Below, piece by piece: positions 3,719-23,508 of a DNA stretch of 23,508 nt. Origin of the DNA: a virus. The notes beneath the pieces are model-generated. The model had not been told where the DNA came from and did no database searches. It worked only from the letters and a program-made list of their open reading frames with translations. Position 1 is the stretch's first letter; each line of letters begins with the position of its first letter. Made by a program: the position numbers and the translations under genes. Location: the IMG/VR virus record IMGVR_UViG_3300009149_000291, positions 1-23,508 of that record, one strand, 5' to 3'.

Positions 3719-4438
3719 TTAACGAAAGTTAATTTTCACAAGCTTATCCAATCCAGCCTCAACATGCATTTCATCATCTAGTAATACTTCAAAGTCAAAT
3801 CTTGGATCTAGTGGTAATACTAAGTCTACTTGAGAACCCCATCTTATTAAACTAAACCTTTCATTTTGACACATTGGTTCTTTCTGGAAGTTAACAAAGT
3901 GGGCTATAACATTTACATCTTCATCTGCGATTTGGACTAGATGGTACTTATAATCTAACTTAGCAGAGTATATAGTATTTCTCATTCTTTGATTATACTT
4001 AAGATACTCCATATTGTTAGGATTAATAGCCATATCTAGAATGTCTTTTTCCGTTGCTAACATTGGTCTATTCATAGACTCTATAGGATCTAACGGTTTA
4101 TATGAAAGAGTACCTGCATATGGTATACGGTTTATATGAACGTCATAAAATGACATAAATATACCAATTACTAGAGATGGTTGATTGTATTCTTTATCCT
4201 GTAGTACATCTTGTAAAGTGTAGTTTACACCTTTGATTTCAATAATAGGATCATTTGCATCTTCTACAAACTTTTGATAGAGAATAGTTCCATCTGCTGG
4301 GGAGTAGAAGTGTTGATAATCTATAAAGTTAGGACGAATAGGATCTCTAAAGAAGAAAGTATTTGATAACTCACCTACAGGTAATTTAGCTAACTCTTCT
4401 ACATCTGATTCTAGCCAATCTTCTAATGTTTTAGCCAT
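3719..4438 (-). CDS. psd: phosphatidylserine decarboxylase-like pyruvoyl enzyme
   Basis: 239 aa with the full motif order of short, soluble-type phosphatidylserine/archaetidylserine decarboxylases. SPADG (46-50) carries the Asp of the Asp-His-Ser autocleavage triad. KGVNYTLQDVL (69-79) is the conserved KG..Y.L..LL segment. DVHINRIPYAG (99-109) supplies His101. NERFSLIRWGSQVDLVLP (192-209) holds the Gly201-Ser202 site at which such proenzymes self-cleave to give a beta chain and an alpha chain with an N-terminal pyruvoyl group. Known members convert phosphatidylserine to phosphatidylethanolamine at the inner membrane. No membrane segment is visible. The ATG overlaps the stop of the amidinotransferase-like gene (TAATG), so the two are coupled. 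The substrate in the phage context is unknown; a free amino acid or a protein is possible. Confidence 0.85.
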   Translation of the reverse strand: MAKTLEDWLESDVEELAKLPVGELSNTFFFRDPIRPNFIDYQHFYSPADGTILYQKFVEDANDPIIEIKGVNYTLQDVLQDKEYNQPSLVIGIFMSFYDVHINRIPYAGTLSYKPLDPIESMNRPMLATEKDILDMAINPNNMEYLKYNQRMRNTIYSAKLDYKYHLVQIADEDVNVIAHFVNFQKEPMCQNERFSLIRWGSQVDLVLPLDPRFDFEVLLDDEMHVEAGLDKLVKINFR

Positions 4439-5352
4439 TACAGTAAAGTTTTATTTTGATCAACATAATTAAGATGCATTACCATACAAGATAGAAGAGC
4501 ACCTGACTTCATATACTCTGAGAGATTAAAGATTACAGGTTCTAAACCTTCATTAGAGCAAATTTTTTCTAGAGTATTAATTTTATTTCTTTCTAAATCA
4601 TAATTTTCATCTTTTATAGAAAGTTCAGATATATTAGAAGCACATAAAATCATGTTACCCATTCTTACAGAGTTAGTAATACCTCCAAAAGCATCACCTT
4701 CATTTATATCTATAACCCCAGTATGTTTTTCTATTTCAGCTATCTCTGAAGGGTCGAACATTTCGGTGCAAACTAGAGTTTTGTTTTTAGTTAACGGGAA
4801 AATTGAACAATCTAAGTGGTAGAGATAGTCTTCAACCATTTCTACTTTAATAATATTCATGTCAAAATTTTCTTCCATCCACTCATATGCTTCATACTCT
4901 GAGCGAATACCATACCCACCAATGTAAACATTATCATGTAAGTATTTAAGATCTGCTTCTCCTTCCCATTTATGAGGACACATATGAGTCTCATAATTCA
5001 TCATTTGGAAAAATGGTTTTCCTACTTTTTCCTCACCTCTTCTAGGTTCTGAGGTGAAGTTAGATAAGATAATATTATTTGAGTCTTTAATGTGAGGTAA
5101 GTAGATTCCTAAGTTAGCTACATAAACCAAATCTTGATACTCACCATAAGAAGGTAAAGTATACACTAATGAATCTCCTGCCATGAAATTATAGAGATCC
5201 ATAAACTGTCTGTAAGCTTTAGGTTTGTTAACTTTTAAATCTTCTTCTGATAACTCTTCCATCCATACATTATTTGGATTAGAAGTATCCAGCGAGAAAG
5301 GAAAATTCATTACAAAAGCTGGAAAAGGTAACTGTGATGGGGTTTCTTTCAT
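4438..5352 (-). CDS. amidinotransferase / dimethylargininase-like pentein-fold enzyme
   Basis: 304 aa with the guanidine-group-modifying (pentein) signature. QDLVYVANLGIYLP (73-86) is the first conserved strand pair. FTSEPRRGEE (99-108) resembles the PERRGE segment. EGEAD (130-134) corresponds to the EGxGD motif. YHLDC (178-182) gives catalytic His179. SGALLSCMVMHL (283-294) places the nucleophile Cys289 in the usual C-terminal position. Known relatives (dimethylarginine dimethylaminohydrolase, glycine and inosamine amidinotransferases, arginine and agmatine deiminases) form a covalent amidino-Cys intermediate. All catalytic elements seem intact, so it is probably active. The exact reaction cannot be read from the sequence. 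A late-class motif lies 27 nt upstream, just beyond the capsid terminator, and the stop overlaps the start of the decarboxylase-like gene. Confidence 0.82.
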   Translation of the reverse strand: MKETPSQLPFPAFVMNFPFSLDTSNPNNVWMEELSEEDLKVNKPKAYRQFMDLYNFMAGDSLVYTLPSYGEYQDLVYVANLGIYLPHIKDSNNIILSNFTSEPRRGEEKVGKPFFQMMNYETHMCPHKWEGEADLKYLHDNVYIGGYGIRSEYEAYEWMEENFDMNIIKVEMVEDYLYHLDCSIFPLTKNKTLVCTEMFDPSEIAEIEKHTGVIDINEGDAFGGITNSVRMGNMILCASNISELSIKDENYDLERNKINTLEKICSNEGLEPVIFNLSEYMKSGALLSCMVMHLNYVDQNKTLL

Positions 5353-5379: not shown

Positions 5380-5387
5380 TATAAATA
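5380..5387 (-). promoter_or_regulatory. late-class promoter-like motif before the amidinotransferase-like gene
   Basis: The coding strand reads AGTATATTTATAGTTG. The core TATTTATA ends 27 nt before the ATG and lies just downstream of the capsid terminator, where a new transcript would have to begin. Confidence 0.45.
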
Positions 5388-5407
5388 TACTAGTCCCTAC
5401 TAGGAAT

Positions 5408-5436
5408 AAAAAAGAGCCTAGATTTCTCTAGGCTCT
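5408..5436 (-). terminator. strong rho-independent terminator after the capsid gene
   Basis: On the coding strand there is a perfect 10-bp stem, AGAGCCTAGA / TCTAGGCTCT, closed by a GAAA tetraloop and followed directly by a run of T. It begins 24 nt after the capsid stop codon. Confidence 0.93.
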
Positions 5437-15979: not shown

Positions 15980-16776
15980 TTTTCTAATTGAAACCTAAGA
16001 GTTTCTAACTCTTTAATTTGTTTTTTTATATTATTAATCTTAACACTTAAATCATCTGCTTCTTCTTTTTTACTTTCATCAGTCATTATTTTAGATAACT
16101 GATTTTGGTTTGATTTAAGTTCTTTTCTAAGTCTAACTAATTCTTTTATTGTAAAGTCTAATTTCTCCTCAGAGTTTTTTTTTTTAGATTCATCAAGAGT
16201 TTTATAATCTGTGGGTTTAGCTATAGGTTGTAATTTATATCTAAAAAGAAAACCTTCAAATTGATCATACCATTTATCACTTTTGTTAGTAGGTACATAA
16301 ATTACTTTAAAAGGATTAACTTTATTAGTAGGATCCATTTCGTATTTTATCCCTAATTGATCCAATTGGATTTGAATAGCCTTAACGTGATTATTTATAT
16401 TAAATTTAGGTTTTTGGTTTTCATCAGTTCTGCTTAAAGCTTTAAGTTTTTGAGAACGTTTTTTAAGTTCTGTTTTGGATTGGTGTATAACCCTATCTAA
16501 CCTAAGAATTTCATCATCATTACTTTTTTGAAATTCTTTTTCTCTTTGTTTAATAAGTTCTTGAAGAAAACCTATTAATTCATTATTAGAATAACCTTGA
16601 AACCTATCTACATTAAATTTAGAGTTTTTATTTTCTTTAGTTAAACCTAATTCATCAGATAGTTCTTTAGTTTTTTCAAGTTCTTTATTAAGTTCTTTAG
16701 CAGACTCAACATCTTCTTTAGATACTTCTTGGAGAATTATTTCTTTGATATACTCTTTAAGGTCTTTTTTAGTCAT
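15976..16776 (-). CDS. coiled-coil protein of unknown function
   Basis: 266 aa, very rich in Lys and Glu, with no Cys. Three coiled-coil stretches lie at about 1-45, 65-115 and 205-266. Between them is a small globular part at about 123-190 (HVKAIQIQLDQLGIKYEMDP, then FEGFLFRYKLQP). The N-terminus MTKKDLKEYIKEIILQEV carries the amphipathic motif seen in the head-core proteins. No known family recognised. Its ATG overlaps the stop of the P-loop gene, and a late-class motif lies 15 nt upstream inside the end of that gene. Proximity to terminase and the shared motif suggest a virion or assembly role. Confidence 0.6.
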   Translation of the reverse strand: MTKKDLKEYIKEIILQEVSKEDVESAKELNKELEKTKELSDELGLTKENKNSKFNVDRFQGYSNNELIGFLQELIKQREKEFQKSNDDEILRLDRVIHQSKTELKKRSQKLKALSRTDENQKPKFNINNHVKAIQIQLDQLGIKYEMDPTNKVNPFKVIYVPTNKSDKWYDQFEGFLFRYKLQPIAKPTDYKTLDESKKKNSEEKLDFTIKELVRLRKELKSNQNQLSKIMTDESKKEEADDLSVKINNIKKQIKELETLRFQLEK

Positions 16777-17321
16777 TTGATATGGTTTTGGTATAAATAT
16801 TGCATATCTGTAACTTCTTTAATTTGTTGAATTCTTTCTTCAGTAGTTCCTTTAATTGTATGATAAGTAGGAACATATTTAAATAAAAGCCTTTGAATAG
16901 TACTGTCAATTTCATCTCGATAAGAAGAGTTAGTTTCTCTTACCCCATTATCTTCAATAGCTACTCCTTCAGGAGAAACATAAAAGATGTAATCATATTT
17001 TTTAATAAAACGTTTAGCATACTCTGCAAAAGCATCATTGTCAATGTAACTTACTTTTTGAGCACATTGGGTAAATGACATCACATCTATAATTGTTCTA
17101 TCAGTTATTATATTGTCCTGCATTAACTCTGTAACACGTTCTGCCAAAAATATAGTTTGACCTTCTATAGTGGTTTGATGATTGAGAGGAATACCTAATG
17201 AGTTTAGATATTTACTTCTTTCACAAGCTATTTTATAATTTTTAAATTCAGGAAGTTTAGCTAATTCTTTAACTAGAGTAGTTTTTCCTACAGAAACTGT
17301 TCCACAAAAACCTATTTTCAT
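16773..17321 (-). CDS. AAA_28 / NadR-like P-loop NTPase
   Basis: 182 aa. Walker A is GTVSVGKT (7-14), followed by a CERSKYL segment and a second conserved stretch IITDRTIIDVMSF, as in NadR C-terminal kinases and AAA_28 proteins. KYDYIFYVSPE and a late YRDEID helix complete the pattern. Relatives are small nucleoside or nicotinamide-riboside kinases and phage NTPases. The substrate here is not evident. The gene sits between a 74-aa gene and the coiled-coil gene and overlaps the latter by four bases. The assignment to a kinase-like P-loop family is firm; the precise reaction is not. Confidence 0.8.
   Translation of the reverse strand: MKIGFCGTVSVGKTTLVKELAKLPEFKNYKIACERSKYLNSLGIPLNHQTTIEGQTIFLAERVTELMQDNIITDRTIIDVMSFTQCAQKVSYIDNDAFAEYAKRFIKKYDYIFYVSPEGVAIEDNGVRETNSSYRDEIDSTIQRLLFKYVPTYHTIKGTTEERIQQIKEVTDMQYLYQNHIK
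16792..16799 (-). promoter_or_regulatory. late-class promoter-like motif before the 266-aa gene
   Basis: The coding strand reads GCAATATTTATACCAAAACC. The core ends 15 nt before the ATG. It is embedded in the 3' end of the P-loop gene, so it is kept despite coding constraint. Confidence 0.45.
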
Positions 17322-22839: not shown

Positions 22840-23508
22840 TTAAAATTCAATATTATCTCCAAATGAGTCAAAAGCTAATTCTTTCTCATAGTTTTTAATA
22901 ATATTTTCAGCCACATAAGTTCCTTGTGCTCCACTTACAGTTATACCTCTAGCTGACAAAGCATCACCTACAAAGTGTACGTTTGGATATTTTGTGAGTG
23001 ATAGGTTATCATAATTTACAAGTGGTTCTGGGGAAAGATATTTTACTTCAGGAATATAAATTCCCCAATCATCCTTTAATGTTGGGAATACTTTTTTCAA
23101 ATCATTAATAAAATCTTCAATATATTGAAAATAACCCTGAAATGCTTCTTTTACTTCCTCCAATTGAGAACAATCAATAGATACAGCACTTACAGTACCA
23201 CCTTCAGAAGTGTTTGAGGGTTGACGAGAGGGACTATAATACAAACCAGTAGCATCTTTTTGAACCTTTGAAACCAACTCACGTGACCATTTGAATGGTT
23301 CTTCAATACCTTGAATTTCCATTAAAATACCAAAGTTGGTCATATCATTACGATATGCTTCATCTTTTTTAGCGTGGCCATTGTAACTGTGGTCACCATA
23401 TGTTTCTTCTACTGCAACATATGCTGCGTTATTATTTGTACAGAATGAACGTAACGAAACCCCTTCATTATCAAATTTACGATATAATTTAAAATCATAT
23501 GAAATATC
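22840..23508 (-). CDS. FAD-dependent dehydrogenase, C-terminal part (5' end outside window)
   Basis: The frame is open from the right edge to the stop, giving 222 visible residues; the internal ATG at 23343 is not the real start. The visible part has LRSFCTNNNAAYVAVEETYG, then SYNGHAKKDE, then TNFGILMEIQ, which follows the RTFCxCPxGxV ... NG ... N pattern of COG2509-type FAD-dependent dehydrogenases. Near the C-terminus, NVHFVGDALSARGITVSGAQ and GTYVAENI form the terminal FAD-binding segment. The N-terminal dinucleotide-binding part would lie outside the window. The visible part is unbroken, so the gene is probably functional. Its substrate is unknown. It is unusual as phage cargo, and sits upstream of the early-class units. 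Confidence 0.75.
   Translation of the reverse strand, partial: DISYDFKLYRKFDNEGVSLRSFCTNNNAAYVAVEETYGDHSYNGHAKKDEAYRNDMTNFGILMEIQGIEEPFKWSRELVSKVQKDATGLYYSPSRQPSNTSEGGTVSAVSIDCSQLEEVKEAFQGYFQYIEDFINDLKKVFPTLKDDWGIYIPEVKYLSPEPLVNYDNLSLTKYPNVHFVGDALSARGITVSGAQGTYVAENIIKNYEKELAFDSFGDNIEF

Follow-up and report, generated by a model that had tools for sequence, protein, structure and literature searches.

The window analyzed here is the whole 23,508-nucleotide stretch of viral DNA (IMG/VR record IMGVR_UViG_3300009149_000291), and it carries on the minus strand two intact open reading frames that share a TAATG stop-start overlap. An earlier account made from the sequence alone (the sequence-only reading) had described both reading frames, and its coordinates and overlap were correct (Table 1). 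The catalytic residues it had listed were also recovered by script, namely His179, Cys289 and E130-G-E-A-D134 in the first protein (AMD) and Asp49, His101 and Gly201-Ser202 in the second, which resembles phosphatidylserine decarboxylase (PSD). The placement of the pair between the capsid gene and phoH was confirmed; the neighbors encode the T4-type major capsid protein Gp23 (PF07068, 1e-75) and PhoH (2e-49) and belong to a block of head genes. No obvious further pathway gene adjoins the pair in the phages. The motif ATATTTATA is indeed found before the pair, where a late-class motif had been claimed; it also precedes g2572 and the PhoH and portal genes, and all five copies in the window lie on the coding strand. 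Its recurrence at late genes makes late expression a plausible label for the pair, with the support being weak, as five copies were reached in 3 of 100 shuffles. Elsewhere in the window, a 167-aa reading frame (22840-23343, minus strand) weakly matches flavin amine oxidoreductases in their C-terminal part (PF01593, E 0.008) and apparently lacks the N-terminal one, and a NadR/deoxynucleoside-kinase-like AAA_28 protein (PF13521, 1.6e-10) is encoded upstream of the terminase gene (16773-17321, minus strand).

Table 1. Features of the AMD/PSD-like gene pair and its 5' flank, in window coordinates.
Feature	Position	Strand	Remark
AMD gene, 304 aa	4438..5352	-	ArgZ/AgrE-type arginine dihydrolase homologue, guanidine-modifying superfamily
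PSD-like gene, 239 aa	3719..4438	-	pyruvoyl-type decarboxylase proenzyme of a distinct subfamily; proposed ornithine decarboxylase
TAATG stop-start overlap, AMD/PSD coupling	4436..4440	-	
ATATTTATA, late-type promoter motif 5' of the pair	5380..5388	-	5 copies in window, 1.6 expected
Hairpin and T-run parting the capsid gene from the pair	5406..5436	-	located by eye
AMD Asn80 (ArgZ Asn71)	5113..5115	-	N71S mutant traps covalent intermediate (PDB 6juz)
AMD E130-G-E-A-D134 (ArgZ E118, D122)	4951..4965	-	invariant
AMD His179 (ArgZ H168)	4816..4818	-	invariant
AMD Cys289, nucleophile (ArgZ C264)	4486..4488	-	invariant in phages
PSD Asp49	4292..4294	-	invariant
PSD His101 (E. coli His144)	4136..4138	-	invariant
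PSD Glu130	4049..4051	-	subfamily-specific invariant acid; insert absent from canonical PSDs
PSD Asp172	3923..3925	-	Gly of IAG-xx-ARRI in canonical PSDs
PSD Gly201-Ser202, predicted self-cleavage site for pyruvoyl cofactor	3833..3838	-	invariant

The AMD protein matched the NCBIfam arginine dihydrolase family NF052232 (E 1.7e-23) with 83 bits, below the equivalog cut-off of 450 bits, so it is regarded as a homologue rather than a certified ArgZ or equivalog, and its substrate may differ. Pfam yielded only a weak DDAH match, and the protein falls in PHROG 12759, of unknown function. Among PDB sequences, ArgZ/AgrE was matched at an E of 1e-16, and at 2e-30 when a profile was used. The AlphaFold model (pLDDT 92.8) was searched with Foldseek, which placed all ArgZ/AgrE entries on top (best 6jv1, E 4e-21, TMt 0.88) and DDAH, SxtG, AGAT, HsvA and AstB under them. 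The equivalent residues of AMD and ArgZ are N80/N71, R104/R90, E130/E118, D134/D122, R150/R139, H179/H168, D181/D170 and C289/C264, the last pair aligning with the C264S mutant position of 6jv1; the roles given to ArgZ residues in this work follow PDB titles and general background on the superfamily. The retention of N80 favors dihydrolase over transferase chemistry. DDAH-type enzymes use two arginines to bind the alpha-carboxylate of their substrate, a group that agmatine does not have, and the conservation of R104 and R150 in AMD thus favors an amino acid substrate over agmatine. An amidinotransferase identity was considered and rejected, as AGAT and SxtG rank under ArgZ and DDAH and no Pfam or NCBIfam amidinotransferase family was matched; the label ‘amidinotransferase-like’ in the sequence-only reading was therefore a loose one, the specific match being to arginine dihydrolase. 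AMD resembles cyanobacterial ArgZ (Sll1336) and AgrE (Alr4995) in its fold, its catalytic Cys, His, Glu and Asp, the dihydrolase Asn and both arginines. It differs from them in being a stand-alone, single-domain protein without the C-terminal ornithine cyclodeaminase half, at an identity of about 22%, and in being coupled to a decarboxylase whereas ArgZ/AgrE are coupled to the cyclodeaminase. From the sequence matches and the model, we infer that AMD is an ArgZ/AgrE-type arginine dihydrolase homologue with a predicted activity of converting arginine to ornithine.

The second protein was recovered by PF02666 (E 4.1e-22, 79.3 bits against a gathering cut-off of 22), but its best score of 70 bits on the NCBIfam PSD equivalog fell below the cut-off of 183 bits; it belongs to PHROG 12670, of unknown function. 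It has in common with the PF02666 phosphatidylserine/archaetidylserine decarboxylases the Gly-Ser self-cleavage site, the Asp and DVHxNRxP motifs and the fold. Across its phage and actinobacterial relatives, Asp49, His101 and Gly-Ser are invariant and DVHxNRxP is present in nearly every one. We compared these pair-type PSDs with canonical PSDs from the bacterial genomes that carry AMD homologues. The hydrophobic N-terminal membrane segment is absent in all pair-type PSDs and present in the canonical copies of the same genomes. The canonical IAGxxARRI is replaced by IADxDVxxI, with the loss of two arginines and the gain of an invariant aspartate; an insert carries Glu130; and the cleavage context is GSQ, compared to GSR or LGST in canonical PSDs. 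In the tree the pair-type PSDs form a clade of their own, apart from the canonical PSDs, with 100/100 support, and in actinobacterial genomes with the pair they are a second copy, a canonical PSD being also present. The model of the protein is of moderate confidence (pLDDT 79) and aligned by VIA-align with E. coli PSD (Z 10) and with PsiD (Z 8.7). Foldseek gave no PSD match for the same model, probably because the solved PSD structures consist of split chains. In E. coli PSD, both membrane binding and maturation depend on the N-terminal helices, and serine analogues that lack acyl chains are not turned over (PMC7952604). Together with the model, these sequence differences lead us to infer that the substrate of the PSD-like enzyme would be soluble and cationic. 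PsiD, the L-tryptophan decarboxylase and fungal relative of PSD, decarboxylates a free amino acid and is a precedent for such a substrate switch on the PSD fold, although its substrate and lineage are different and its structural Z is only the 8.7 given above.

The viral set comprised 120 distinct AMD genes, 116 of which had at least 300 bases of sequence downstream. A PSD-like gene was the next gene after AMD in all 116 of these loci, with the exact TAATG in 103, and the order capsid-AMD-PSD-phoH was kept wherever those genes lay within the sequence. The dN/dS values of 0.05-0.13 indicate purifying selection on the pair. Of the 47 records in the phage collection that matched AMD, 45 matched PSD too; of the other two, one is a Xanthomonas phage with a remote DDAH and one has a partial match only. 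In Bacteroides phage DAC19 the two genes are adjacent and flanked by primase and HNH homing endonuclease genes instead of capsid and PhoH genes; in Campylobacter Fletchervirus phages the two genes are both present in separate positions, and AMD adjoins DNA replication genes in NCTC12673. The survival of the pair through these changes of context speaks against a role confined to the head or mere hitchhiking. The sequence-only reading had proposed that adjacency across diverged phages would support a pathway; adjacency was found to be conserved, also in Actinobacteria, and the active sites were intact, which marks a genuine functional pair. The AMD tree joined actinobacterial and most phage sequences (94/80) and set the cyanobacterial ones apart (97/91), with DAC19 and NCTC12673 on long branches of unsure placement.

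Several loci showed additional genes around the pair. At one viral locus an endonuclease-like reading frame, GIY-YIG-looking by eye, parts AMD from PSD (L017:5628-6629), and homing endonucleases directly follow the PSD gene in DAC19 and NCTC12673; the cassette may thus be a homing target. About 20 viral loci have 0.7-1.75 kb with extra genes between capsid and AMD. In one of them (L011:4769-5889) the insertion encodes a protein of 271 aa that contains long GTSG repeats and has a decoration- or fiber-type look.

One genome scan with the AMD profile returned 22 loci, 21 of them besides a single phage-like locus, L092. The latter (NZWA01000018.1) is a contig of a GTDB Flavobacteriales MAG and represents the same phage type, with portal, protease, capsid, AMD and PSD genes. 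In nine of the 21 loci, all actinobacterial, a pair-type PSD gene lies directly upstream of AMD, the reverse of the phage order. At four cyanobacterial loci the neighbor of AMD is a PLP fold-III decarboxylase, at a distance of 67-179 bases, and at a Spirulina locus it is an OKR-type Orn/Lys/Arg decarboxylase, 139 bases away; the remaining seven (Mesorhizobium, Rhodospirillaceae, Bauldia, Myxococcales) have no adjoining decarboxylase. The cyanobacterial fold-III enzymes score under the LysA cut-off and carry TCDSxD, which we take to be the ornithine/lysine decarboxylase form of the motif, compared to VCETGD in the true LysA of the set. The filling of one position beside AMD by three unrelated decarboxylases is typical of non-homologous replacement serving a single reaction, and since ornithine decarboxylation is the step after arginine dihydrolysis, we propose it as the reaction of the swapped slot. 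The bacterial pair is rare, as a search of 346 Actinomycetota genomes with the PSD profile (E<=1e-40) recovered nothing beyond the query genome and a single partial match; a plasmid search with both proteins recovered none. In Streptoalloteichus (L110:7947-8900, L113:7947-8918 and L257:2214-3113), the catalytic Cys of AMD is changed to Ser or Arg and other residues are lost too, with the adjacent PSD-like gene intact. By their residues, these AMD copies are decaying or non-catalytic partners, and the PSD-like protein can thus be useful without dihydrolase activity. The NCTC12673 record cites as similar AF210249, presumably a bleomycin-cluster record. A link of the pair to bleomycin or tallysomycin was not supported: the second Streptoalloteichus hindustanus pair (L258, L259) adjoins a MarR regulator and an MFS exporter, and none of the ten proteins scanned has a peptide-synthetase domain.

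We propose that the pair encodes a two-step route from arginine through ornithine to putrescine, a reading to which we assign a probability of roughly 55%. Cys289 of AMD would attack arginine at its guanidinium carbon, and hydrolysis in two rounds would free two ammonia and CO2 and leave ornithine. The PSD-like protein would cleave itself at Gly201-Ser202 to form its pyruvoyl cofactor and, as a PSD relative that has shed the membrane segment and the basic headgroup motif, would accept a soluble cationic amino acid and convert ornithine to putrescine. The support for a decarboxylating step on ornithine or arginine comes from the bacterial partner swap and the motif changes. Translational coupling would yield both enzymes together, probably late, and the putrescine and freed nitrogen may serve DNA packaging into heads and translation. 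A polyamine-like cation was among the products suggested in the sequence-only reading and is the one favored here; the proposed route is different, with an arginine dihydrolase and a decarboxylase in place of guanidine chemistry on an amine. The phage records searched yielded no spermidine synthase, AdoMetDC or PLP fold-III decarboxylase; without the first two, the pathway would end with putrescine, unless enzymes of the host convert it further. The heads of T4-like phages contain putrescine and spermidine, which neutralize DNA. Both polyamines are used in T4 packaging buffer (PMC8589836), but the polyamines of chlorovirus virions are too few to neutralize their DNA (PMC7019647), which leaves a translation role equally open for phage putrescine. 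When Campylobacter jejuni was infected with NCTC 12673, its argBCD had risen 2.7-3.3 fold by 120 min (PMC6024767). The rise is an independent hint, compatible with arginine consumption, and may be a general response.

A different small molecule is an unlikely product, though several observations point to it. AMD would then act on a non-standard guanidino compound, as an amidinotransferase or a dihydrolase, and the PSD-like enzyme on a dedicated precursor, the product being exported in bacteria as a natural product. Exporter genes (ABC, MatE, EamA, MFS) lie near bacterial pairs (L098, L094, L110, L259), with regulator genes also adjoining, and suggest a secreted small molecule there, perhaps other than putrescine. 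The amidinotransferases SxtG, HsvA and AGAT are structural relatives of AMD, and its score on the dihydrolase equivalog model is low. However, the best matches of AMD are dihydrolases and its dihydrolase Asn is kept, the swap is among three cationic-amino-acid decarboxylase types, and the phage pairs stand without an obvious further pathway gene. We consider it quite improbable that the steps run in the reverse order, with the PSD-like enzyme as an arginine decarboxylase forming agmatine and AMD as an agmatine deiminase or dihydrolase yielding carbamoylputrescine or putrescine. Arginine is accepted by OKR-type and pyruvoyl decarboxylases, phage pyruvoyl arginine decarboxylases exist (PMC9992855), and an agmatine deiminase-like gene was found near cyanobacterial loci. 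Against this order, AMD keeps R104 and R150, whose counterparts in this superfamily bind the alpha-carboxylate missing from agmatine, and the cyanobacterial partner has the ornithine/lysine-decarboxylase motif.

The sequence-only reading had also offered remodeling of host membranes, in which the PSD-like enzyme would make phosphatidylethanolamine, perhaps with amidination of the headgroup; in such a scheme AMD would modify the headgroup or else supply nitrogen. Membership in the PSD family and the full catalytic set speak for this, and we nevertheless disfavor it as very improbable: the protein has neither the membrane segment nor ARRI, E. coli PSD requires N-terminal helices and acyl contacts (PMC7952604), and in actinobacteria the pair-type copy is a second one beside a canonical PSD. 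A phosphatidylserine synthase of the CDP-alcohol phosphatidyltransferase type was not found in 12 phage genomes, and this reading gives no account of PLP amino-acid decarboxylases occupying the same slot. The least credible reading, modification of a virion or host protein by peptidyl-arginine deimination with an accessory decarboxylase, draws on the position of the pair in the virion block of this genome and on the fold that AMD shares with peptidylarginine deiminases, and it is opposed by the DAC19 pair lying away from virion genes, the NCTC12673 AMD beside DNA replication genes, the small-molecule dihydrolases that are the best structural matches, and a decarboxylase partner for which it has no explanation.

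Returning to the arginine-to-putrescine route, virus-encoded putrescine synthesis is already known from AdoMetDC-derived pyruvoyl ornithine/arginine decarboxylases, including phage enzymes, and from viral arginase with ODC; in the account of these systems, ornithine decarboxylation is given three folds and PSD is left unmentioned (PMC9992855). The likeness to the present pair lies in virus-encoded putrescine and a re-purposed pyruvoyl enzyme. The folds are unrelated, with a PSD and an arginine dihydrolase proposed here as one coupled two-gene unit, so that the pair would be new as a cassette of different enzymes in T4-like phages. In the literature searched, no paper on neofunctionalization of PSD to an ornithine decarboxylase was found, and the statement in the sequence-only reading that no phage pathway with this pair had been described stands within that literature. 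If the pair makes putrescine, ornithine decarboxylation would have a fourth protein fold, the phages would have re-purposed a pyruvoyl enzyme a second, independent time, and cultured Bacteroides phages would offer a clean way to probe the need of phages for polyamines. The broader claim, that a soluble pyruvoyl ornithine decarboxylase on the PSD fold and an ArgZ-type dihydrolase form a portable arginine-to-putrescine cassette that Actinobacteria share with T4-like phages from several bacterial phyla, is put forward tentatively, at slightly short of an even chance. In well-studied Campylobacter phages each of the two genes has its own annotation, one as a lipid enzyme and the other as an amidinotransferase, and both are listed under ‘unknown function’ in PHROGs; with the former annotation, pipelines may count the PSD-like gene as lipid metabolism.
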